From the NCBI GenBank assembly GCA_012838235.1, contig DUPQ01000065.1:1-64000 (forward strand): a stretch of 64,000 nt of DNA. Direction: 5' to 3'. The DNA is from Clostridiaceae bacterium (lineage in GTDB: Bacteria; Bacillota; Clostridia; DUPQ01). The translations under genes and the position numbers were made by a program. Shown here one piece after another: positions 3,045-52,952 of the stretch. The notes below the pieces were generated by a model. It saw nothing but the letters and a program-made list of their open reading frames with translations. It was not told the DNA's origin and ran no database searches. Position 1 is the first letter of the stretch. Every line of letters starts with the position of its first letter.

Positions 3045-3050
3045 CAAATT

Positions 3051-3265
3051 AATGCTGTGAACTGAAGGAGTAGTTTGTAAAACCTCACAGAGAGAAAGCG
3101 GTAGCTGAAAAGCTTTTAGGCAATTTGCAGATGAAGGTCGTCGGGGAGCAAAACGTGATGCAAGCGTTAATTGCAATCGAGAGTCCCGTAAAAACGGGGA
3201 AATCAGGTGGTACCGCGGAAAGTATCCTTTCGTCCTGAAAAAATTTAAGGATGAGAGGATTTTTT
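3051..3265 (+). promoter_or_regulatory. T-box leader with terminator (probably tRNA-Val responsive)
   Basis: The T-box sequence AGGTGGTACCGCGG (3205-3218) and the upstream AGAGAGAAAGCGG element are diagnostic. The terminator pairs ATCCTTTCGTCCT (3224-3236) with AGGATGAGAGGAT (3248-3260), followed by TTTTT. The specifier is best placed at GTC 3137-3139 (a second GTC follows directly), which is a valine codon and fits valS downstream. Uncharged tRNA-Val should stabilise the antiterminator and let the operon be read. The terminator's right arm also carries the GAGAGG ribosome site of the first gene. Confidence 0.88.
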
Positions 3266-42337: not shown

Positions 42338-42366
42338 TTGACATAAATTAACTGCTGTGGTAAATT
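42338..42366 (+). promoter_or_regulatory. Promoter of the c-di-GMP riboswitch locus
   Basis: TTGACA (42338-42343), 17-bp spacer, TAAATT (42361-42366). Transcription should begin near 42373, at the 5' edge of the aptamer. The upstream 60 bp are runs of A and T with no other feature. Confidence 0.75.
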
Positions 42367-42370
42367 GTTA

Positions 42371-42456
42371 CCGTACAAAGGCAAAACTGTAGAAATGCAG
42401 TGACGCAAAACTATGGAGCTTCGTTGTTAGTTAGCAAGCCCGCCAAGTTGCTACAT
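42371..42456 (+). ncRNA. Cyclic-di-GMP-I (GEMM-I) riboswitch aptamer
   Basis: AAAGGCAAAAC is followed by a hairpin ACTGTA-GAAA-TGCAGT with the family's GAAA tetraloop, then the invariant linker GACGCAAA (42402-42409). A second stem-loop (CTATGGAGCTT...AAGCCCGCC) and a closing AAGTTGC complete the GEMM-I pattern. The 3' end (42450-42454) is shared with the left arm of the following terminator, so ligand binding would compete with termination; this suggests an ON switch, tentatively. Confidence 0.9.
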
Positions 42457-42487
42457 TGGACCAAACAGGTTCGGATGTAGCTTTTTT
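42450..42487 (+). terminator. Riboswitch expression-platform terminator
   Basis: GCTACATTGGACC (42450-42462) pairs, with one mismatch and a bulge, with GGTTCGGATGTAGC (42468-42481), followed by TTTTTT. It lies 73 bp before the first gene. Confidence 0.9.
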
Positions 42488-42559
42488 ATTAGGAAAATAA
42501 GAAAGCTGCAAACGGGAAAAATGTGAAATGTGACTTAATTGGATGAATGGGCGAGTGTA

Positions 42560-43303
42560 ATGGCTAACGTAAAACAAACTACAACTAAACAGAATCTCCG
42601 TAGTATGGAAATATACTATTTACCCGTACTCAACATACAACTCGGAATAACCCAAGCATATATCACCCAGTTAAGGATAAATGATCCTCAGATGGGTGTT
42701 ATTATTGATGAAGCATTTATGCCCGTAGCCGAAAGAACCGTTGTTACCGAAAAGATTACAACCTGGTTGTTGGACAACCTTTTCAATGATATTCAGAGAT
42801 TCAGAGGCAGAGGAGTTCAAGCCGACTGGTTCGGAGTATACATTCCCACCCGCGTATTGTTGAAGAAAGATTTCTTAACGGAATTATGTAAAAAAGTAGT
42901 TGAATACAATATCCAAAACAGTGATTTATGTATTTGTTTGTATAATAAAGTATTATATGAAGACCATATGGAAATTAAAAGCATACTTTCACAAGCCAAA
43001 TTAGAGGGTATTAAATCCCTTATGTTGGACTTCGGAGATGATTTCTGTCCCGTATCAAGAATATCCGATATAAAGACCGATTATGTTCACTTAAGTGAGA
43101 GTGTAACCGAATCGTTGATTTCTAACGATGAAATTAAAAGAAATACGGCATTGGGGCTGTATCATCTTTTACATTCTTTAAATATAGAAACTATCACATC
43201 TAATGTAAAAGATCGTGATGTATCCGGTAGTATTCCGGAAAGCTGCATATTATGCACAGGTAAATTTGCAGGCAATTACAGAAGGCCCAGGAGCGTAAGA
43301 TAA
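42560..43303 (+). CDS. Degenerate EAL-domain protein, probable c-di-GMP receptor or scaffold
   Basis: 247 aa from ATG 42560; the ribosome site is weak and TTG 42539 is an alternative. The whole chain follows an EAL domain: MEIYYLPVLNIQLGITQAYI matches the start of EAL folds, EAFMPVAERTVVTEKITTWLLDN matches the next helix, LDFGDDF replaces DDFGxGY, and LLHSLNIETITSNVKD replaces the AEGVET region. The EAL signature itself is AYI (about 33-35), and the ExE and AEGVE metal ligands are missing. It should be catalytically dead. As the first gene after a c-di-GMP riboswitch it may bind c-di-GMP or other subunits. Confidence 0.75.
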   Translation: MANVKQTTTKQNLRSMEIYYLPVLNIQLGITQAYITQLRINDPQMGVIIDEAFMPVAERTVVTEKITTWLLDNLFNDIQRFRGRGVQADWFGVYIPTRVLLKKDFLTELCKKVVEYNIQNSDLCICLYNKVLYEDHMEIKSILSQAKLEGIKSLMLDFGDDFCPVSRISDIKTDYVHLSESVTESLISNDEIKRNTALGLYHLLHSLNIETITSNVKDRDVSGSIPESCILCTGKFAGNYRRPRSVR

Positions 43304-44046
43304 TGAGAAAAGATTTATCAGTTGCTAAAACCGCATACAACGTTCGCAGGACATCACTCTGGTTCAGAGGTATGGTTATATCCCTGATAGCCTTAGTATT
43401 ACTCTTATCCGCAGCTTACCTTGTTTCGGCATTCTATGACAGATACAGCAGTTTTACGGTATCCACGGCATACAGCGGAAGCGGCAGCTCCGGAAAGGGA
43501 GGAAGCGATTCGAGAGGCAGTTCCTTGTTGAAATTAGCATTGTCCTTATGCGAAACTCCGGACTTTCTTACACCTACAACCAGGTTATATGCAGATGCCA
43601 TAGAGAACTGCACCAACATCTCAGGTCAATCCATACCCGAGAATGTTGATGCCATTAACGGACAGCATAACGGAGAGAATTATTTAGCATATACGTTCTA
43701 CCTTAAGAACGCAGGTATGGAAGCCGTCACATACGAATATGTAGTAAATATACTGAATGTTACAAAGAATGTGGATGAAGCGGTAAGAATCAGGGTTTAT
43801 GTAGACGGAACACCTACAACATATGCCAAGACCAAGACAGACGGAACCGGCCCTGAAAAGGATACTGTGGAGTTCTTAACCGAATCCATAGTTGCAAGAA
43901 ACAGACGTGCCTATTTTATGCCCGGTGACATTACAAGATTTACCGTTGTTATCTGGATTGAAGGCGATGATCCCGAATGTTTGGATGACATTATCGGCGG
44001 AAAGTTTAAAGTTACAATGGACATAGCCATTGTAGAAGGATCGTAA
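43303..44046 (+). CDS. Membrane-anchored or exported TasA/camelysin-like protein
   Basis: 247 aa, starting on the previous stop. A basic N-terminus precedes one long hydrophobic segment (about 23-45, SLIALVLLLSAAYLVSAFYD), then a Gly/Ser linker (SGSGSSGKGGSDSRGSS). The exported part is beta-rich: LAYTFYLKNAGMEAVTYEYVVNIL, VRIRVYVDGTPTTYAK, and VIWIEGDDPEC near the end. The WIEG[DQ]D..C motif is shared with the next protein. These features resemble SipW-dependent TasA/CalY-type proteins; the retained anchor suggests a base or initiator of a fibre. Confidence 0.7.
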   Translation: MRKDLSVAKTAYNVRRTSLWFRGMVISLIALVLLLSAAYLVSAFYDRYSSFTVSTAYSGSGSSGKGGSDSRGSSLLKLALSLCETPDFLTPTTRLYADAIENCTNISGQSIPENVDAINGQHNGENYLAYTFYLKNAGMEAVTYEYVVNILNVTKNVDEAVRIRVYVDGTPTTYAKTKTDGTGPEKDTVEFLTESIVARNRRAYFMPGDITRFTVVIWIEGDDPECLDDIIGGKFKVTMDIAIVEGS

Positions 44047-44106
44047 AAATAATGCTTTTCAAAAAGCTTATTTAATATTATAATAAAAAAAGGAGTTATT
44101 GAAGAA

Positions 44107-44955
44107 ATGAAACAAATCAAAACAAGACACAAACTGATCCCGGCCATCATAATGCTGTTGGTTGCTGCAATCACAATGAGCACAGCATCATATGCCTGGT
44201 TCACAATGAGCACAAAGGTAGACATACAGGGTATTCAACTTAATGTAATTGCACCGGCAAACATACTTATAAGAGAAACAAAGACATTAGCACCGTATAA
44301 TGAGTTTGTTAATGTAATTGAAACCACCCAAAATCCCACTAAAAAGCTAAAACCTGCTTCTTCCGTAGACGGTGTAGCTTTCTTCATACCGAACGATGAA
44401 ACAGCAGGTAATGTTTTAGCATCAGGAGCTCTACCGGAAACAGGAGAGATTAACACAACATCCATTCCGGTTACTAATGAGCAAGACGGCTATTTTGCCG
44501 AATACAAATTCCAGTTGGTTAATACCGGCGGTAGTGCTGTAAATATAGGTTTAAAAGACCTGCAAATTACAGCAGGCGGTGGAAATCAGCAAGACACAGA
44601 TATATTGCCTGCAGTCAGATTTGCTATATTGAGTGAAGGTGTTAATGTAATTACCGGAGTTGGTGAAGACAAGATATTTGCATCCAGTGATACTGCTACA
44701 GTATATGCTTTATCTGCTAGCGGTTCTTATTCAGGGTCATCACCTACTACAACAGAAGCACCCGCTCGTAACAAGTTTGATACAGGTGCACTGTTTACAC
44801 TTGCTGCTAACGGTGTCGCAAGTGCAGTAGCAGACCCGGATGGTATGAAGGATATAATTGTAAGAGTTTGGATTGAAGGACAGGATACTGCTTGTAAAAC
44901 AACAAGTGCAAATTCGACCTTTAAAATACAGTTTGCCTTATATATTATACCCTAA
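44107..44955 (+). CDS. Secreted TasA/camelysin-like protein, putative fibre subunit
   Basis: 282 aa; AAAGGAG precedes the ATG. The signal is TasA-like: KQIKTRHKLIPAIIMLLVAAITMSTASYAWFTMST, with an Ala-Ser-Tyr-Ala-Trp-Phe junction typical of SipW substrates. The mature part is beta-rich with YFAEYKFQLVNTGGSAVNIGL, a low-complexity Ser/Thr stretch (about 200-220) and VRVWIEGQDTACKT near the end. It probably forms the main extracellular fibre or matrix protein. Strong hairpins follow, as expected for a highly expressed subunit. Confidence 0.75.
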   Translation: MKQIKTRHKLIPAIIMLLVAAITMSTASYAWFTMSTKVDIQGIQLNVIAPANILIRETKTLAPYNEFVNVIETTQNPTKKLKPASSVDGVAFFIPNDETAGNVLASGALPETGEINTTSIPVTNEQDGYFAEYKFQLVNTGGSAVNIGLKDLQITAGGGNQQDTDILPAVRFAILSEGVNVITGVGEDKIFASSDTATVYALSASGSYSGSSPTTTEAPARNKFDTGALFTLAANGVASAVADPDGMKDIIVRVWIEGQDTACKTTSANSTFKIQFALYIIP

Positions 44956-44975
44956 CTCTTGATTTAACTGATTTA

Positions 44976-45009
44976 CCTGCCCGTAGCCTTTAAACGGGCT
45001 GCGGGCGGG
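44976..45009 (+). terminator. GC-rich hairpin after the putative fibre subunit
   Basis: CCTGCCCGTAGCC and GGGCTGCGGGCGGG arms around TTTAAAC. No T run follows, so it may protect the upstream 3' end or slow polymerase rather than terminate. Confidence 0.6.
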
Positions 45010-45064
45010 ATTGTATATCTAAATCGGTATAAACATTTCAGTTGATTGCGCTGATTTGTTTAAT

Positions 45065-45112
45065 GGAAAAGATCTTTCCTTTTGCTTGAAAGACCTTTTC
45101 TGTTAGATTTAG
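45065..45112 (+). terminator. Second hairpin, weak terminator or attenuator
   Basis: GGAAAAGATCTTTC and GAAAGACCTTTTC arms around CTTTTGCTT, followed by TGTTAGATTTAG. The imperfect T-rich tail suggests partial termination before the machinery genes. Confidence 0.65.
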
Positions 45113-45147
45113 ATGTGCTATTATATAGTTAAATGGGGAGGCGGATT

Positions 45148-45828
45148 ATGAAGAAATGGCTAAAAACGGTAGGGAATGTACTTTTATGGGTATTTATTAT
45201 ATTTGCTGTGTTCATGACAGTAATTGCATTTACCTCTACCAAGAATGAACTTGGGGTCTCTGTTATCTTAGGTAAGATGCCCATTACCATACTGACGGAG
45301 TCTATGGAGCCGACACTGAAGAAAGGTGACCTCATAATTAGCCATGAGTTGAAGCCGGAACAGAAGAGCTTATTAAAGGAAGACGATATCATCACATATG
45401 CCGTTGATTTGGACAAAGACGGCAAGATGGAACTTAACACTCACAGAATTGTTTCTGTAAGGAAAGGTGGGGATGGGTATATATACTATACCACCAAAGG
45501 TGATAATAACGTTATTGCCGATACCGATGAAGTACGTTATGACAACGTAATAGGTGTATATAACGGAAGAAGGGTTGGCGGTGTGGGAAGTGTATTGAAC
45601 TTTTTGCAGACACCGAACGGTTTCCTTATATGTGTAGTCATTCCTTTAGTACTGTTCTTACTTTATGAGATATATAACTTCATAAAAGTTATGTTGACAG
45701 TTAAGAACGAGAAGAAGAATAAACTGGATGAAGAAGAGATTAAGAGAAAAGCTATTGAAGAATATATTGCACAGCAGAATAAAGAACAGGAGAAGTCGGA
45801 GAGCGACGCTGATTCTGCACAATCCTGA
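45148..45828 (+). CDS. sipW: Signal peptidase I, ER/SipW type (copy 1)
   Basis: 226 aa from ATG 45148 (GGGGAGG 6 nt upstream). Membrane helix about 8-30; catalytic Ser52 in LTESMEPTLKKGD; His99 in NTHRIV replaces the Lys of ordinary bacterial enzymes; a late acidic block is YYTTKGDNNVIADT. A second helix lies near 155-180, then a charged cytoplasmic tail. Ser/His enzymes of this type process TasA-like precursors in Bacillus. It should cleave the two upstream proteins. Confidence 0.92.
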   Translation: MKKWLKTVGNVLLWVFIIFAVFMTVIAFTSTKNELGVSVILGKMPITILTESMEPTLKKGDLIISHELKPEQKSLLKEDDIITYAVDLDKDGKMELNTHRIVSVRKGGDGYIYYTTKGDNNVIADTDEVRYDNVIGVYNGRRVGGVGSVLNFLQTPNGFLICVVIPLVLFLLYEIYNFIKVMLTVKNEKKNKLDEEEIKRKAIEEYIAQQNKEQEKSESDADSAQS

Positions 45829-45858
45829 ATTAAACTTAAATAAAGGATAGATTTAAGC

Positions 45859-47466
45859 ATGGATGCGTTTTTAGGTTGGTTTTTTGAATTTATGAACTAC
45901 ATGCTACGGGGAGTGATACGCTTCTTTGTAGGCATATATGAAGGAATAGTACAGACATTTAATATTGTAAAGTACATCGAGATTTTCAGAAGCTATTATC
46001 AGCAATTTAAGTTTCTCGATTGGTTCTTTGCCATTTTAGCTATTATTTTGGTAATAGCGGTATGGCTGACTATAATACTGCTTATCATCCTCGGTATAAA
46101 GAGGATTATAAACATAAGGAAAAATACAGTCACACAGGAAAGTATCTTTGAAGAGATAACCGATCTTCACAGAGAAATATTGCGACTTAATGATGAAAAA
46201 GACAGGATTTTATCCTTAAAGATATCACAGGCGGGTATATCGGCTAAGGATCTGGCCAAGGAGTTAACCGACATTGCGGAGAAATCACGTGAAAAGGTCA
46301 GCCAGATGGATGAATTCGGTACGGCGACTACCGATTCTACAGGTGATATTTCCGTATCTTCCGATCAGCAGCCCGAAGTAATGATGGAGTCCAGGTTCTC
46401 GAAGCTTATTGAAGTGGATCAGAAATATACATATTATACTCCGCAAGAGTATACAACCGGATTCACTCTGGAACAGCTTTGTAATGATTTCCGTAACTTC
46501 GCATGCAGTAAGATGAAGTTGTATTACGAGTTGGAAATGATGCGTGTCCTGATTTCCTCTATGGCTTCCACAAAATTGATAGTACTGCAGGGTATATCCG
46601 GTACAGGTAAAACATCGTTACCGTACTGTTTCGGAAAATTTATTAAGAATGATGTCACGATGGCATCGGTTCAGCCTTCCTGGAGAGACAGAACCGAACT
46701 GTTCGGATATTTCAATGAGTTTACCAAGAAATTCAATGAAACCGAAGTGTTGAGAAGAATATATGAAGCCTCATACAACGATGACATCAATATGATTGTT
46801 TTGGACGAGATGAATATTGCACGTATAGAGTACTACTTTGCCGAAATGCTTTCGGTTTTGGAAATGCCCGATCCCGAGCAGTGGCAACTGGAGTTGGTAC
46901 CCAGTTCCTGGACATCCGACCCGAGAAATCTGGTAGGCGGTAAATTGCGGATACCGGAGAATATCTGGTATCTCGGAACGGCTAATAACGACGACTCTAC
47001 TTTCGCACTTTCCGATAAAGTGTATGACCGTGCATTTACAATTAACTTTGAATCCAAAGGACAACCTTTTGAAGCACCCGATACCGAAGCACGCCCTATT
47101 AGTTTTACTTATCTTGAGGAGCTTTACTCCGATGCATGGGAAAGATTTCCCGTATCCAAAGAAAACCTTGATAAGATTGCCAAACTGGATTTATATATTA
47201 TTCAGAAGTTCAGAATTGCTTTCGGTAACCGTATTTTGAAGCAGTTACTTGAGTTTGTTCCGGTATATGTGGCATGCGGCGGCAAAGAGATTGACGGTAT
47301 AGACTATGTTCTTTATACCAAAGTCTTAAGAAAATTCGAAAGCCTCAACCTGTCGTTGATAAGAGATGACTTGAAGGAGTTTGTTACATATCTGAACAGA
47401 AGTTTCGGAAGAAACAATATGAATGAATGTAAAAAATATCTGGAACTGCTTCAGAGGATGTATTAA
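45859..47466 (+). CDS. Membrane-anchored McrB/MoxR-like AAA+ ATPase
   Basis: 535 aa. Hydrophobic segments at about 15-30 and 55-85 anchor it. A coiled coil follows (about 95-150, EEITDLHREILRLNDEKDRIL), then a Ser/Thr linker. The AAA+ core has Walker A QGISGTGKTS (244-253), Walker B MIVLDEMN (312-319) and sensor-1 GTANNDDS, followed by KVYDRAF with the Arg finger candidate. The core is of the McrB/dynein-related class. Membrane anchoring is unusual for McrB relatives and suggests a role in envelope assembly rather than restriction. It pairs with the next gene. Confidence 0.85.
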   Translation: MDAFLGWFFEFMNYMLRGVIRFFVGIYEGIVQTFNIVKYIEIFRSYYQQFKFLDWFFAILAIILVIAVWLTIILLIILGIKRIINIRKNTVTQESIFEEITDLHREILRLNDEKDRILSLKISQAGISAKDLAKELTDIAEKSREKVSQMDEFGTATTDSTGDISVSSDQQPEVMMESRFSKLIEVDQKYTYYTPQEYTTGFTLEQLCNDFRNFACSKMKLYYELEMMRVLISSMASTKLIVLQGISGTGKTSLPYCFGKFIKNDVTMASVQPSWRDRTELFGYFNEFTKKFNETEVLRRIYEASYNDDINMIVLDEMNIARIEYYFAEMLSVLEMPDPEQWQLELVPSSWTSDPRNLVGGKLRIPENIWYLGTANNDDSTFALSDKVYDRAFTINFESKGQPFEAPDTEARPISFTYLEELYSDAWERFPVSKENLDKIAKLDLYIIQKFRIAFGNRILKQLLEFVPVYVACGGKEIDGIDYVLYTKVLRKFESLNLSLIRDDLKEFVTYLNRSFGRNNMNECKKYLELLQRMY

Positions 47467-47489
47467 TGATTTTGTAGGAGAGTATTATT

Positions 47490-48731
47490 ATGGCCAGACG
47501 CAAGAAAAAGTTAATACTTGACCAAGAGCAGAAAGATTCAATATACGAAGATACAAAAGATTTTATTTCATACATATATGAAGATTATGACTTCTATCAA
47601 TCGCTTGTACGTTTGTTGGACAGAGGTAAAAACCAGGCGGTTCTTTACAGAAAGGTACTTCAGAAGAATATTGATGAGATATGGGTAAAAAGGGTGGAAG
47701 ATGCTTTACCTTATCTGGATACCGCATTAAGGGCTGTGAGGAAGGATATAAAAGAGGTGGAGGAGATCAAACCCATAGCATTATCCAGAAACATAACCGT
47801 TAAGTCTTTGCGGCATCTTGCGACACATACCAATTTTATAGACAGAGTGGATGAAAAGGGCAATGTTATACCCAACAAGCTGCTGAATGTATATAAAGAT
47901 GAGGAAATACTTACATATGAGAATAAGTTTTTAAACACCCTCATATACAAGTTGGCTCTTTTTATAGATGTCAGATATGAAAAACTGAAAGAATACGGTG
48001 CGGATGAAGTATCCAATGTAATGTCCATGGATATTGAAACCAAGGTTGTGGATACCGAACTCAAAATGAGTATTCACATCGAGACAAAAGACGGAGCGGA
48101 TGAACAGGATAAAAAGGACAATGTAGATATTTACGAGGATGTGTCAAAGTCTTCTCTGTGGGCAAGGGTTTTGAGAATAAGGAAGATTATAAGGCAGTAT
48201 CAGGCTTCACCCTTTATAACTCAGATGGGAAAGGCATATATACGTCCTCCCGTAATGAGAACCAATGCAATTACCAAGAATGTGCATTTGAGAGAGTGTC
48301 TGGAGTTGTGGTTGTTTATTGAGAGTTACGAAAGCGCCGGATTTGATATAGAAAGCAGTTCGGTAACGGAAAAACCAAGCAAAGAACTTATGGAGAATCT
48401 CTACAGGCTGCTGGCTTTTCAGTATGTTATGTTCAGAAAAAATACATACGATCAGTTGGATGACATAATAAATAAGAGTACCGCAAAACTCAGATACAAT
48501 GCCCGGTTTAAACAATTGGATACTCAGGAGTTTACCGATCAGTATGAGTTTTTAACTCCCGGTGTCAAAAAAGTATATGTTGAGGAGCTGAGCAGAAAAG
48601 GCACCAGATTGACTAAAGAAGAAGTGAAGATCCGTAAGGCTATCGATAATGCGCTGAAATCGGAAAGACTATATGCAGCCGAAAGGAAAAAAGCCGCTCC
48701 CAAACAGCGCAGGAAAACAAAGCAAAAGTAG
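47490..48731 (+). CDS. DUF2357/McrC-like partner without nuclease domain
   Basis: 413 aa; GGAGAG precedes the ATG. The central part matches the DUF2357 pattern that accompanies McrB-like ATPases: NKLLNVYKDEEILTYENKFLNTLIYKLALFIDVRYEKLKEYG (ENxF signature), then LWARVLRIRKIIRQYQASPF. DUF2357 proteins usually end in a PD-(D/E)xK nuclease; here the end is a helical segment and a basic tail (KKAAPKQRRKTKQK), with no D...ExK core that I can see. It is likely an adaptor for the ATPase. Basic tail binding to nucleic acid or membrane is possible. Confidence 0.7.
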   Translation: MARRKKKLILDQEQKDSIYEDTKDFISYIYEDYDFYQSLVRLLDRGKNQAVLYRKVLQKNIDEIWVKRVEDALPYLDTALRAVRKDIKEVEEIKPIALSRNITVKSLRHLATHTNFIDRVDEKGNVIPNKLLNVYKDEEILTYENKFLNTLIYKLALFIDVRYEKLKEYGADEVSNVMSMDIETKVVDTELKMSIHIETKDGADEQDKKDNVDIYEDVSKSSLWARVLRIRKIIRQYQASPFITQMGKAYIRPPVMRTNAITKNVHLRECLELWLFIESYESAGFDIESSSVTEKPSKELMENLYRLLAFQYVMFRKNTYDQLDDIINKSTAKLRYNARFKQLDTQEFTDQYEFLTPGVKKVYVEELSRKGTRLTKEEVKIRKAIDNALKSERLYAAERKKAAPKQRRKTKQK

Positions 48732-48769
48732 TTTTTCATGTGCTTTCGGGTTTCGGTATATATACAAAT

Positions 48770-49450
48770 ATGAAAAAGCTTTTTAAAAGAAAAAATATAA
48801 GAACAATTTTCACGGTAGTATTTTCCGTTTTACTGGTTTTGTTGGTTCTTCTGGTGGGTAATATCATTTATTCACAGATAACTCATAAGGTTCCCGCTAT
48901 TTTCGGGTACAGTGTCATGAATATAATTGCCGGCAGTATGGAACCGGTTATACCTAAAAATACCTTCATATTGATAAAGCAGGTGGATCCCGAACAGTTG
49001 CAGGTGGGGGATGTAATTACGTTTTATTCTTCCGATCCGCTTATACAGGGACTTCCCAATACCCACAGAATTTTTGACATTGTTATGGAGAACGGTCAGA
49101 AGTTCTTTGTGACAAAAGGAGATGCCAATGCCATACCCGATTCCTACAATGTCGGTTTTGATGATGTTATAGGGGTTTATGTAAAGAATATTATTTCACT
49201 GGGTAAAATCGGTATGATTTTTCAGAATAAATCCGTTGTATTCCTGCTTCTTGTCGTACCGGCTGCAGTGCTGTTTATAATGGAAATTATCAATCTTACC
49301 AAAACCGCTGCCAAGGTAAAGCAGGAGGATATTGAATCGGCTTCAATTGAAGAAAAGTGTGATGATGTTGAAACATCCGATTCAAAGGAAACAGATTCGG
49401 AAGATATAAAATCAGAGGAAAAGGAGGAAAAGAGCGTTGAGTCAACCTAA
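48770..49450 (+). CDS. Signal peptidase I, ER/SipW type (copy 2)
   Basis: 226 aa from ATG 48770; the ribosome site is weak, and GTG 48740 is an alternative. Membrane helix about 13-35. Catalytic Ser56 lies in IAGSMEPVIPKN and His99 in LPNTHRIFDI. FVTKGDANAIPDS provides the acidic site. A second helix (about 165-185) and an acidic tail follow. It differs markedly from copy 1, so substrate specialisation is likely. It overlaps the next gene by 14 nt. Confidence 0.9.
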   Translation: MKKLFKRKNIRTIFTVVFSVLLVLLVLLVGNIIYSQITHKVPAIFGYSVMNIIAGSMEPVIPKNTFILIKQVDPEQLQVGDVITFYSSDPLIQGLPNTHRIFDIVMENGQKFFVTKGDANAIPDSYNVGFDDVIGVYVKNIISLGKIGMIFQNKSVVFLLLVVPAAVLFIMEIINLTKTAAKVKQEDIESASIEEKCDDVETSDSKETDSEDIKSEEKEEKSVEST

Positions 49451-50090
49451 GAATGCGGAAAATGTGATTGAAGAGAAAGACGAAGATATAATAGAAGAAA
49501 AAGACGTAGAGACCGAGCAAAAAGCCGATGCGGTTGAAGAACAGGATGTTAAGAAGAAAAAGAAAGGCTTAATAGAGAGATTTCTTGGTCCGAAAGAGCC
49601 CGATGTTAATGATGATTCCGATTATCAGAGTGTGCTCAGGAAAAACTTTTACGATTTTGACCAGATTAATAAAAAGCGGCAGATAACTTCATTGCGGATG
49701 GCTGTAATGGCTCTTACCCTTATTCTGATTGTCATACTAACCCTTTATATAGTACATCTGAGCGATTCGACGATTCTTCTGGATAAATTAATCGATTCGT
49801 CAAGTAAATATGTTTTGGATAATGTGATGTATGTGGATAATCCCATAAAATATACAGAAGTGGTTTCGGAACTTAATGTTATGAGGACTTTGATGAATCA
49901 TAACGGTGAACTGGGAAAAAGACAATATGCTATAAGCGAGTTGTATTATATAGCAATACAGCTTCCCGATTCTTTTGTTAAGTACAAAGCTGAAATATAT
50001 GATGCATTTAAAAACATTAATGAAGGGAAACAGGATGTGGGGTATAAGCTTATAGAGGAGCTTTTGGTTAAAATAGTAGAGGAAAGATAG
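49437..50090 (+). CDS. Single-pass membrane protein of unknown function
   Basis: 217 aa; TTG start, with AGGAGG 9 nt upstream inside the previous gene. The first 60 residues are strongly acidic and then basic (IIEEKDVETEQKADAVEE, KKKKKG). One membrane helix lies about 88-110 (MAVMALTLILIVILTLYIV), followed by about 105 helical residues outside (IDSSSKYVLDNVMYVDNPIKYTEVV...). No homologue recognised. It may link the cytoplasmic ATPase to exported subunits. Confidence 0.75.
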   Translation: MSQPKNAENVIEEKDEDIIEEKDVETEQKADAVEEQDVKKKKKGLIERFLGPKEPDVNDDSDYQSVLRKNFYDFDQINKKRQITSLRMAVMALTLILIVILTLYIVHLSDSTILLDKLIDSSSKYVLDNVMYVDNPIKYTEVVSELNVMRTLMNHNGELGKRQYAISELYYIAIQLPDSFVKYKAEIYDAFKNINEGKQDVGYKLIEELLVKIVEER

Positions 50091-50098
50091 GAAGTAAG

Positions 50099-52366
50099 TT
50101 GAGAAGAGGTGTAAGTTTTAAAAGTGCATACCTTGTCCCTTCAATGATAATTATCATGTTTCTTCTGCTGTTTGTAATGTTATTCCAGATGCGTTTTTCC
50201 ATAACGGAGTTTGTAATGGAACAGGCTGCAACCGATAATGAAACGATAGCAAAGGAGAAATCCGCTTTATTCGATTCATTACTGGTAAATATGTCATTGG
50301 AGACAAACGGAATATTGAATTATACAGACTTTACCTTTTACACTATAGAGAATGAATATGATGCCAGAGAGGCCATAAGCGACTATTTCCCCAACACTAA
50401 TTGCGTGAGATTCTTTTATTTCATGCGTGACGGCAGAGTATATGACCAGGATACAAGACTTTACAAAGATATAGAGGACAATCTTGCGCAATTGAAAGCC
50501 ACCGAGACGCTTTCTTTGAGTATGCCGTTTTATGACGAGGCTGCTAAAACCGAACTTATCATAATTTATTTACCCAATCCCGATTCCGGCAGTGTTCTTG
50601 CAGGTGTTGCCGCATACTACAAGGTATCGGAAATATATACCATAGGCGAGTTCTATGTTTCCGACACCGGCTCGCACTATATATTTGATAAAGACGGTAA
50701 TTCCGTATTCTTAAAAGATAAAGGAATAACGGTAGCATCACTGATGGAGAGCTATGAATTTCCGGAAACGGATATTAACAGAATTACGAATTTTATGCAG
50801 GAAAAAGGTATTGTAGATACCGTTATCAGTTCCTCGGACAGTGCCGTAATAAGTGTGTGCGGCGTTCGGAAGTTTGTGGACTGGTATGTTGTGTCTTTGC
50901 TGCCGTCAACGGTTATTTCCGATAAAACTTCGCATGTTATTGAACAAACACTGCTCATATCCGTCCTTATCCTTGCCGTCTTTATAATCTTCGTCATCAT
51001 ATTCCTTGCAGCGGATACCAGATCTTTAAGAAAAATGGAAAGGCTGCAGAATATCGATCCGGTTGCGGAATGTGCCAATCAGTATAAGTTTGAAATAGAT
51101 GCCGGTGAAATTTTAAGAGCAAACTCCTCTACCAAATATGCGATATTGTATATAAATATAATGAATTTCAAGAATATCAAACAGTTGTTATCAGTAAGCG
51201 AAGTTAATGCGATAGTCAGAAATCTTTCGGATATATTAAGAAAAACTATAGTAAGAAACTTAGAAACATACGGTCGCACTTCGGACGGCAGGATGGTAGT
51301 CCTTATGAGGTATAAGGATATTGAAGAGATACAGGATCGGTTTAATGAAATAGCGGAAGACTTCAAATCAACCGATCCGGTAAGCGGATACATGATGAGA
51401 CTCAATGCCGGTGCTTATTGTATTGACAGAAGCGGCAATTATCAGGTTTCGGAAATGATAGACAGAGCGGCTTTCGCTCAGAATTCCATAAAGGAAGATT
51501 CCAATATAAGTCTGGATTTCTATCACCAGAAGAGTCATGACGACCTTTTAAGAACCGTTGCGCTGGAAGGATTTATGGAAAAAGCTTTGAGTAATGACGA
51601 GTTCATTATTCATTATCAGCCCAAATTCGATCTTAATAATAACAGAATTTACGGGGCGGAGGCACTGGTGCGCTGGGTAAGACCTAATGAAGGAATAGTT
51701 CCGCCTTCTCAGTTTATTAACCTTTTTGAAAGAAGCGGATACATTTCACAGTTAGACAGATTTGTTTTTACCGAAGTGTGTAAATTCCAGAACAGAATGG
51801 TTAAAGAGGGCAGCAGGATTATACCCATATCGGTTAACGTATCCAGGGCAAGTGCGGAAAAAGAAGGATTTATCGAATATTATGTAAACACAAAAAATCA
51901 GTACGGTATAAAAGACGGTTTTTTGGAGCTGGAGTTTACTGAAAGTAAAGCACTGGAAGATAACGATTTGCTGAGTGACAGAATAAAAGAGCTGAAGAAG
52001 TACGGTTTTGCAATATCCATTGACGACTTCGGTGCGGGATATTCTTCGTTTAAGGCTTTACAGACTTTGGATTTCGATATAATAAAGCTGGACGCGGTAT
52101 TCCTGAAAACCAACCCCAACAATCCCAAGAAAAATGTCAATCTTCTCTCGGGTGTTATTGCACTGGCTAAGACTTTAGGGATGAAGGTAATAGCGGAAGG
52201 GGTGGAAACTCACCAGGAAGTTGCCTTACTGAGAGAACTGAAATGTGATGTTATTCAGGGATTTATATATGCCCGGCCCATGACCGGTACCGACTTTGTT
52301 GCATTCGTTAAAAACGCTCTCAGTACCAGAACGGAAAAAGACATGCTGACAGAGGATATTACCTGA
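50099..52366 (+). CDS. Membrane c-di-GMP phosphodiesterase: sensor, degenerate GGDEF, intact EAL
   Basis: 755 aa; TTG start after AGGAAG. Helix 1 about 12-32, an external sensor (about 35-280, Cache-like), helix 2 about 284-305. The GGDEF region (about 345-470) has SDGRM at 395-399 in place of the signature, so no cyclase activity is expected. The EAL domain (about 490-735) is complete: EAL 521-523, SVNVS near 580, Glu612 in LELEFTES, DD 642-643 in IDDFGAGYSS, Lys663, Glu700 and Glu703 in AEGVET, QGF 720-722. It should hydrolyse c-di-GMP and so oppose the riboswitch signal. Confidence 0.9.
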   Translation: MRRGVSFKSAYLVPSMIIIMFLLLFVMLFQMRFSITEFVMEQAATDNETIAKEKSALFDSLLVNMSLETNGILNYTDFTFYTIENEYDAREAISDYFPNTNCVRFFYFMRDGRVYDQDTRLYKDIEDNLAQLKATETLSLSMPFYDEAAKTELIIIYLPNPDSGSVLAGVAAYYKVSEIYTIGEFYVSDTGSHYIFDKDGNSVFLKDKGITVASLMESYEFPETDINRITNFMQEKGIVDTVISSSDSAVISVCGVRKFVDWYVVSLLPSTVISDKTSHVIEQTLLISVLILAVFIIFVIIFLAADTRSLRKMERLQNIDPVAECANQYKFEIDAGEILRANSSTKYAILYINIMNFKNIKQLLSVSEVNAIVRNLSDILRKTIVRNLETYGRTSDGRMVVLMRYKDIEEIQDRFNEIAEDFKSTDPVSGYMMRLNAGAYCIDRSGNYQVSEMIDRAAFAQNSIKEDSNISLDFYHQKSHDDLLRTVALEGFMEKALSNDEFIIHYQPKFDLNNNRIYGAEALVRWVRPNEGIVPPSQFINLFERSGYISQLDRFVFTEVCKFQNRMVKEGSRIIPISVNVSRASAEKEGFIEYYVNTKNQYGIKDGFLELEFTESKALEDNDLLSDRIKELKKYGFAISIDDFGAGYSSFKALQTLDFDIIKLDAVFLKTNPNNPKKNVNLLSGVIALAKTLGMKVIAEGVETHQEVALLRELKCDVIQGFIYARPMTGTDFVAFVKNALSTRTEKDMLTEDIT

Positions 52367-52367
52367 T

Positions 52368-52952
52368 ATGCCCAGAATAATAGCGGGAAGCAGGAAAAGT
52401 ATAATATTGGAAGCTCCGAAAGGGGAGAATGTTCGCCCGACATATGACAGGACAAAAGAAAATCTGTTTAATATTATATCTTCAAGATATCCTTTGGAAG
52501 GTGCATATGTCCTGGATATGTTTTCCGGAACGGGAAGCATAGGTCTGGAATGTCTGTCCAGAGGAGCAAAGTATGCGGTGTTTATAGACAAAGATGTTTC
52601 ACTGACAAGAAAGAATATTGAAAAATGCGATTTTTCCGATGTTTCCCGTACCGTAAGAGGCGATTGGGCGACCGGATTAAGAATATTAAAAGAGGAAAAT
52701 ATCAAGTTTACGCACATTTTTCTGGACCCTCCGTACCACTCGGGACTGCATGAAAGAATTATTGAAAACAGTGATTTGTATGATATAATGGGTGAAAACG
52801 GTGTTGTAATTGCAGAGTTGTCGGACAAGGCAAATGTTCCGGAAAATACCGCCGAACTTGTACTCAAAGACAAAAGAAAGTATGGAATCTGCGTATTCGC
52901 ATTTTATATTAAGGGGAGCCATGAAGATTTGGATATGTCCGGGGAGCTTTGA
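52368..52952 (+). CDS. rsmD: 16S rRNA (guanine-N2)-methyltransferase RsmD
   Basis: 194 aa. [11 protein letters not shown] start, [18 protein letters not shown]-binding [20 protein letters not shown] near 48-67, and catalytic motif LDPPY. It methylates G966 of 16S rRNA. It starts 1 nt after the phosphodiesterase stop but belongs functionally with coaD, the usual pair. It overlaps coaD by 32 nt. Confidence 0.94.

Follow-up and report, generated by a model that had tools for sequence, protein, structure and literature searches.

Organization of the locus

A cluster of nine open reading frames (ORFs), all on one strand with intergenic gaps of -14 to +177 bp, follows a cyclic di-GMP (c-di-GMP) riboswitch in a 64,000-nt stretch of contig DUPQ01000065.1 (the window, in whose positions all coordinates are given) from the 2.25 Mb draft genome of a Clostridiaceae bacterium. 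The predicted products are a catalytically dead EAL protein (EAL0), two putative fibre proteins (B1 and B2), a signal peptidase of the endoplasmic reticulum (ER) type (SipA), an McrB-like AAA+ nucleoside triphosphatase (NTPase), a DUF2357-type partner, a second ER-type peptidase (SipB), a single-pass membrane protein and a membrane c-di-GMP phosphodiesterase (Table 1). Family searches with genes 1 to 9 returned, in that order, EAL, none, none, signal peptidase, weak AAA, none, signal peptidase, none and GGDEF-EAL, and the genes without a match were assigned through their relatives. The likely start codons of three genes were revised (Table 1).

A preliminary description of this DNA had placed a promoter, a GEMM-I aptamer and a terminator before nine same-strand genes, and each of these was found, although promoter-like sites overall were not significant against a shuffle control. 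The further assignments of that description were borne out as well: a dead EAL protein first and an intact phosphodiesterase last, by comparison of catalytic residues; two ER-type signal peptidases, both above the family cut-off; and a membrane McrB-like ATPase with a DUF2357 partner, by a transmembrane-like segment, a profile match to McrB and DUF2357 hits among the relatives.

Table 1. Features of the locus, in window coordinates (TM, transmembrane; AF2, AlphaFold 2).
Feature	Position	Strand	Evidence
Sigma-70-type promoter, extended -10	42338-42366	+	TTGACA, 17-nt spacer, TGgTAAATT; consensus match only
c-di-GMP-I (GEMM-I) riboswitch aptamer	42370-42455	+	Rfam RF01051, 63.2 bits (gathering score 35)
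Intrinsic terminator	42450-42487	+	Hairpin 42450-42481, GCTACATT...GATGTAGC-T6; 5' arm 42450-42457 overlaps aptamer 3' end
EAL0, catalytically dead EAL protein	42539-43303 (likely start 42560)	+	PF00563, E = 9e-25; catalytic residues lost
B1, membrane-anchored beta-sandwich protein	43303-44046	+	1-nt overlap with EAL0; membrane segment, residues 17-46; AF2 model, PDB fold matches
B2, putative fibre subunit	44107-44955	+	Signal peptide ending ASYAWF; membrane segment, residues 8-32; AF2 model, fold match
Strong hairpin without U-tract	44976-45009	+	14 bp, 10 GC, -29 kcal/mol; between B2 and machine genes
SipA, ER-type (SipW-like) signal peptidase	45133-45828 (likely start 45148)	+	TIGR02228 above cut-off; SEC11A, E 2e-5
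Membrane-anchored McrB-like AAA+ NTPase, NxD motif (NNDDST)	45859-47466	+	TM-like segment, residues 48-87; McrB profile match
DUF2357 (McrC-NTD)-type partner without nuclease	47490-48731	+	PF09823 via family members
SipB, second ER-type signal peptidase	48740-49450 (likely start 48770)	+	TIGR02228, 92.8 bits
Single-pass membrane protein, C-terminal half conserved	49437-50090	+	TM-like segment, residues 82-116; homologues in at least 30 of 52 loci
Membrane c-di-GMP phosphodiesterase with sensor region, degenerate GGDEF and intact EAL domain	50099-52366	+	EAL, E 2.5e-67; all catalytic residues

Conservation across relatives

A five-row alignment of the ATPase was searched against 84,980 species genomes, which gave more than 557 candidate relatives; the best 80 (52-84% identity) were kept, each with up to 10 kb of flanking sequence. 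Nearly all of the kept loci are from Clostridia (Oscillospiraceae/Ruminococcus, Lachnospiraceae and Eubacterium), together with one Bacilli bin and one Acholeplasmatales bin. Iterated profiles revealed an order shared by nearly all loci: dead EAL, B1, (B2), peptidase, ATPase, DUF2357, peptidase, single-pass protein, (phosphodiesterase). The preliminary description had staked its proposal on conservation of gene order, and the order does recur across approximately 80 loci. Where the flank sufficed, homologues were present for the first-gene EAL protein in 44 of 53 loci, B1 in 42 of 53, the upstream peptidase in 48 of 53, DUF2357 in 50 of 52, the single-pass protein in 30 of 52 and the phosphodiesterase in 16 of 52, counts that are conservative, some genes being lost by the naive ORF caller in favour of antisense ORFs and others through the limits set on distance. 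B1 is the best-conserved extracellular component. A phylum-wide profile search of 399 genomes at E <= 1e-40 recovered only the window's own genome, a result that, with an even draw of genomes and limited scoring, is uninformative on prevalence. An apparent duplication of the ATPase in relative G003 was rejected as genuine, the fragments lying on two contigs of a metagenome-assembled genome with 6% contamination. In the divergent relatives L024 (genome G023) and L023 (G085) the operon has enlarged sets of proteins with an AWF-type signal (see below) and large ORFs, and the EAL protein bears an HD_5 domain.

The ATPase and its DUF2357 partner

The Walker A sequence GISGTGKT and the motif NNDDST(F/Y) are invariant in 78 of 78 relatives and the Walker B sequence LDEMN is present in nearly all; the invariance therefore indicates an NTPase under strong constraint. 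All 77 full-length ATPases have a transmembrane-like segment within the first 120 residues, followed by a leucine-rich helix. The ATPase profile matches McrB in the PDB with an E-value of 3e-7, the match to McrB being at profile level only. The window's DUF2357-type protein has no direct Pfam hit; its assignment is based on PF09823, which was hit by 11 of 15 diverse family members at a cut of E 0.1 (best 5.9e-10). With hhalign no match was obtained between this family and two DUF2357 proteins of defence type, the two-sequence target profile being weak. None of the 15 family members scanned matched a nuclease family, including PD-(D/E)xK, and no nuclease was found among the conserved operon genes.

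The DUF2357 protein is fused to the SipW-like signal peptidase as a single polypeptide in 17 of 69 loci, joined through a charged stretch resembling a coiled coil, and at least three changes on the ATPase tree are needed to explain the distribution of the fusion. In longer family members residues 395-600 are 58% D/E/K/R/Q and match coiled-coil proteins; the window protein has only a short tail. Protein fusion is classical evidence of physical partnership, and these fusions are the strongest single argument from sequence that the pair may serve export and fibre biogenesis. Since no nuclease was recognized and the DUF2357 protein is found fused to a peptidase, the McrBC-like pair is probably connected with fibre biogenesis and not with restriction of DNA. 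The motifs predict NTPase activity, contact between DUF2357 protein and peptidase is presumed to extend to species in which the two are separate, and the ATPase would act as a motor.

Signal peptidases and putative fibre proteins

SipA and SipB scored 85.4 and 92.8 bits against the ER/archaeal-type family TIGR02228 (cut-off 51.85), and the Ser, His and Asp motifs of this type can be read from both sequences (SMEP, HR and KGD in SipA). Both fell below the cut-off of the Bacillus SipW equivalog NF046067, with 113 and 93 bits versus 190. The relatives of B2 share the N-terminus KKLIPAxxMLLVSAxMLxTATYAWFTMN, a SipW-style signal. A protein with such an AWF-type signal is encoded within 10 kb, at recurring positions, in 25 of the 38 loci with at least 7 kb of flank on both sides; isolates that lack such a neighbour encode B2 homologues at other sites of the genome, some at a distance of 20-36 kb on the contig that carries the locus. 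A B2 homologue was found in 12 of 12 ATPase-bearing genomes searched versus none of seven class or family members without the ATPase (1e-4).

Searches of Pfam, NCBIfam and the PDB with the B2 sequence returned no family match, and the best member reached only E 0.34 with the TasA/camelysin profile PF12389. The AF2 models of B1 and B2 have a mean predicted local confidence (pLDDT) of 85 and 74, respectively. Among 350,542 PDB chains the top fold match of the B2 model is the TasA fibre 8aur (E 1.5e-4), and that of the B1 model is the archaeal bundling pilus 7ueg of Pyrobaculum (2.2e-4), with TasA 8aur at rank 7. The C-terminal halves of B1 and B2 are homologous (profile E 1e-9 to 1e-12). The models thus suggest that B1 and B2 resemble TasA-class fibre subunits in their jelly-roll fold, with no claim of family membership. 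The labels TasA-like and SipW-type in the preliminary description hold at the level of fold and motif and fail as statements of sequence-family membership.

Riboswitch and EAL proteins

The genome contains three c-di-GMP-I riboswitches, one of them at the window locus. Relatives were scanned with a covariance model built from 14 aptamers, which located switches in 12 relatives in addition to the window, at the head of the operon; the contig end cuts L112, and the switch of L053 is placed immediately ahead of SipA. The 5' arm of the terminator uses the 3' strand or end of the aptamer in 12 of 16 aptamers. Since the arm and the aptamer share this strand the two structures compete, and the simplest prediction from the sequence is read-through (ON) when c-di-GMP is bound. 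An ON switch together with a terminal phosphodiesterase predicts negative feedback. In L040 (6536-6721) and L044 (5416-5613) tandem c-di-GMP-I aptamers, each with its own terminator-like sequence, precede the same operon.

Among 44 loci with both flanks, nine have switch and phosphodiesterase, three the phosphodiesterase alone, 32 neither and none the switch alone; the riboswitch is thus absent from all 32 loci that lack the phosphodiesterase and have enough flank. In the three phosphodiesterase-only loci very long ORFs occupy much of the upstream stretch searched. One branch of the ATPase tree (SH-aLRT, the approximate likelihood-ratio support, 87) separates the phosphodiesterase loci from the others, and on this tree the phosphodiesterase is most simply a single historical gain or loss. 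A Fisher test of riboswitch against phosphodiesterase (p 3e-7) was not accepted as a sign that the two were coupled repeatedly, since a single phosphodiesterase change suffices on the tree; the value of the association lies in long retention over diverged loci, not in repetition. Loci of Ruminococcus, Eubacterium and other Lachnospiraceae have the same machine with neither switch nor phosphodiesterase.

The catalytic glutamate, the asparagine, the first aspartate, the lysine and the loop glutamate are lost in nearly all of 54 first-gene EAL proteins and essentially all present in 16 operon-terminal EAL domains. The entire machine is retained in relative G023, a 100% complete genome that encodes no GGDEF protein; a scaffold role for the dead EAL protein is therefore more likely than that of an obligatory receptor for c-di-GMP. 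A dependence on c-di-GMP throughout the family was rejected in view of this genome and of the Ruminococcus genomes searched, which have 23-42 GGDEF matches and no switch at the loci checked. The gene rsmD begins at 52368, 1 bp past the phosphodiesterase stop codon, with coaD following, and the two genes likewise come directly after the phosphodiesterase in relative L020; the operon transcript may extend into these housekeeping genes.

The second switch of the genome (L028, 7577-7659 onward, contig C51) directly precedes an AWF-type protein; next come a SipW-type peptidase, a further two AWF-type proteins and an ORF of at least 2408 amino acids. The third (L027, 4095-4184, minus strand of contig C86; 72.6 bits) is on a short contig that also carries a recombinase-like ORF and a pemK RNA, and has no clear downstream gene. 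An unrelated T-box leader is located at 3048-3240 of the window (117.5 bits).

The hairpin after the putative fibre gene

In each of the nine loci of switch type that were examined, namely the window, the closely related L037 and seven more, a gap of 190-370 bp with a long GC-rich hairpin follows the putative fibre gene; the ORF gap in the window is 177 bp. The hairpins have 11-19 contiguous pairs, free energies of -22 to -39 kcal/mol and no U-tract, and no dinucleotide shuffle out of 900 gave a stem score as high as that observed. The sequence varies between lineages, and in addition to that of the window (Table 1) hairpins are located at 2766-2796 in L037, 9074-9107 in L040, 8903-8930 in L044 and 8327-8357 in L091. 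The hairpin would be either a protector of the mRNA 3' end or a partial block that gives more subunit than machine.

Proposed function and alternatives

The results are best explained by a c-di-GMP-gated machine that makes a TasA-like donor-strand surface fibre, to which a probability of roughly 0.6 is assigned. High c-di-GMP would stabilize the aptamer, the 3' strand of which is then unavailable to the terminator, and transcription would read through. B2 would be exported, cut by SipA and/or SipB at the AWF-type signal and polymerize on B1, the anchored base subunit. The membrane-tethered AAA+ ring would be activated by the DUF2357 protein, itself bound to the peptidase, and NTP hydrolysis would control or drive the hand-over of subunits at the peptidase/export site. 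The dead EAL protein would be a cytosolic adaptor, probably of the B1 tail or of the ring, the hairpin after B2 would raise the level of fibre-subunit mRNA above that of the machine, and the terminal phosphodiesterase would lower c-di-GMP and close a negative feedback loop. The narrower proposal, that a domesticated, nuclease-free motor of McrBC type tethered to membrane and signal peptidase energizes donor-strand assembly of the fibre, with the c-di-GMP switch and phosphodiesterase in one clade, is tentative and stands slightly below even odds. The preliminary description had proposed fibre assembly with a c-di-GMP input and likely negative feedback; gene order, fold matches, fusions and the clade-limited switch favour that proposal, whereas its c-di-GMP part does not extend to the whole family.

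Several points weigh against this explanation. All of the support is sequence or computation. The TM-scores of the fold matches are low (0.24-0.36) and the B2 model is only moderately confident, although a modelled monomer set against subunits of a strand-exchanged fibre may be expected to score low. Switch and phosphodiesterase are confined to one clade, so that their association lacks independent replication. An ATPase/DUF2357 pair is missing from the genome's second SipW-type cluster; the c-di-GMP-I switch of that cluster, before a SipW-type peptidase and AWF-type proteins, is counted in support. Finally, TasA of Bacillus subtilis (PMC9674648) and BsaA of Clostridium perfringens (PMC7395162) assemble without an ATPase pair, and a motor is not generally needed for fibres of this kind.

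The motor-free polymerization of these known fibres also favours a locus for regulated secretion of SipW type, with the AAA+/DUF2357 pair controlling the peptidase as a switch or MoxR-like chaperone and not acting as an assembly motor. The two peptidases that flank the pair and the fusion of DUF2357 to the second of them are as expected from such regulation, which is hard to distinguish from a motor by sequence; it explains the conserved NTPase motifs, the membrane anchoring and the single-pass protein no better than a motor does, and is considered unlikely, if worth serious attention. Control by the riboswitch could instead end with the upstream fibre genes, with a separate transcript for the machine genes from 45133 onward. 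The 177-bp gap with its strong hairpin and the retention of the machine in loci without a riboswitch are consistent with two transcripts, but the hairpin has no U-tract, a comparable gap and hairpin are kept in every switch-type locus examined, and the switch co-occurs with the phosphodiesterase at the far end of the operon, making this arrangement rather improbable.

McrB/DUF2357 pairs are typically defence genes, and the locus might accordingly encode an anti-phage system resembling type IV restriction, in which the pair defends the cell while the surface proteins affect the adsorption of phage or detect infection at the envelope. The ATPase scores 1e-37 with the PADLOC candidate-defence profile PDC-M26A, a distant McrB-like pair from the same class combines DUF2357 with a PDDEXK_7 nuclease, and CoCoPALM, discussed below, has been placed beside restriction systems (PMC11090510). 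The freedom from nucleases described above, c-di-GMP-I control and fusion to a signal peptidase, which suit surface biogenesis, and synteny with fibre proteins over many genera argue for the opposite, and defence is judged quite improbable.

Relation to known systems and significance

The preliminary description had known of no report of this combination, which stands for the EAL proteins, the riboswitch and the fibre subunits only: the core of ATPase, DUF2357 protein and signal peptidase has already been named CoCoPALM, in two sentences by Bell et al. 2024, eLife (PMC11090510), with details deferred to a later paper. Its traits are NxD in place of NxxD, usually followed by D/E, an FtsB-like fusion of transmembrane segment and coiled coil, signal peptidases and a coiled-coil DUF2357 partner. 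The ATPase of the locus has a transmembrane-like segment near its N-terminus, and by sequence the locus agrees with CoCoPALM in the NxD motif, the DUF2357 partner and the two signal peptidases as conserved neighbours. Absent from the published text (PMC11090510) are EAL proteins, a riboswitch, fibre subunits, fusion to a peptidase and a phosphodiesterase. A literature search that did not extend to subscription papers or most preprints found no link between a CoCoPALM-type core and EAL proteins, c-di-GMP riboswitches or TasA-like subunits. What is new is the substrates, the dead EAL protein, the fusion, the loss of the nuclease, the clade-specific riboswitch and phosphodiesterase, and the hairpin.

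TasA fibres arise through donor-strand exchange (PMC9674648). In the tapA-sipW-tasA operon of B. subtilis (PMC9674648), as here, a SipW-type peptidase adjoins a beta-sandwich subunit and an accessory anchored subunit, in agreement with the match to 8aur; that operon has no AAA+ protein, DUF2357, EAL proteins or riboswitch, and the locus sequences lie outside the TasA/camelysin family. The sipW-bsaABC operon of C. perfringens (PMC7395162) likewise encodes a clostridial SipW-dependent extracellular polymer with readthrough past the subunit gene, but it is controlled by a two-component system and temperature and has no ATPase pair. Escherichia coli McrBC shares the AAA+ core and DUF2357 activator and differs in its NxxD motif, nuclease domain, cytosolic location and DNA substrate. 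In Staphylococcus aureus PcdA (PMC10602043) an McrB-family protein has also shifted from immunity to a cell-envelope task, although its NTPase is degenerate and it has EVE domains and no McrC partner.

The riboswitch, dead EAL protein and terminal phosphodiesterase form a compact and testable c-di-GMP circuit. If the proposed function is correct, the locus would correct the automatic annotation of such genes as phage defence and would add a second clear example of a restriction motor relocated from immunity to the cell envelope. TasA-class fibres are thought to self-assemble after cleavage by SipW; a dedicated AAA+ partner would revise this picture for a large group of fibre-digesting gut bacteria such as Ruminococcus albus, Ruminococcus flavefaciens and Eubacterium ruminantium, and the locus would represent a new class of surface-fibre biogenesis machine in gut and digester Firmicutes.

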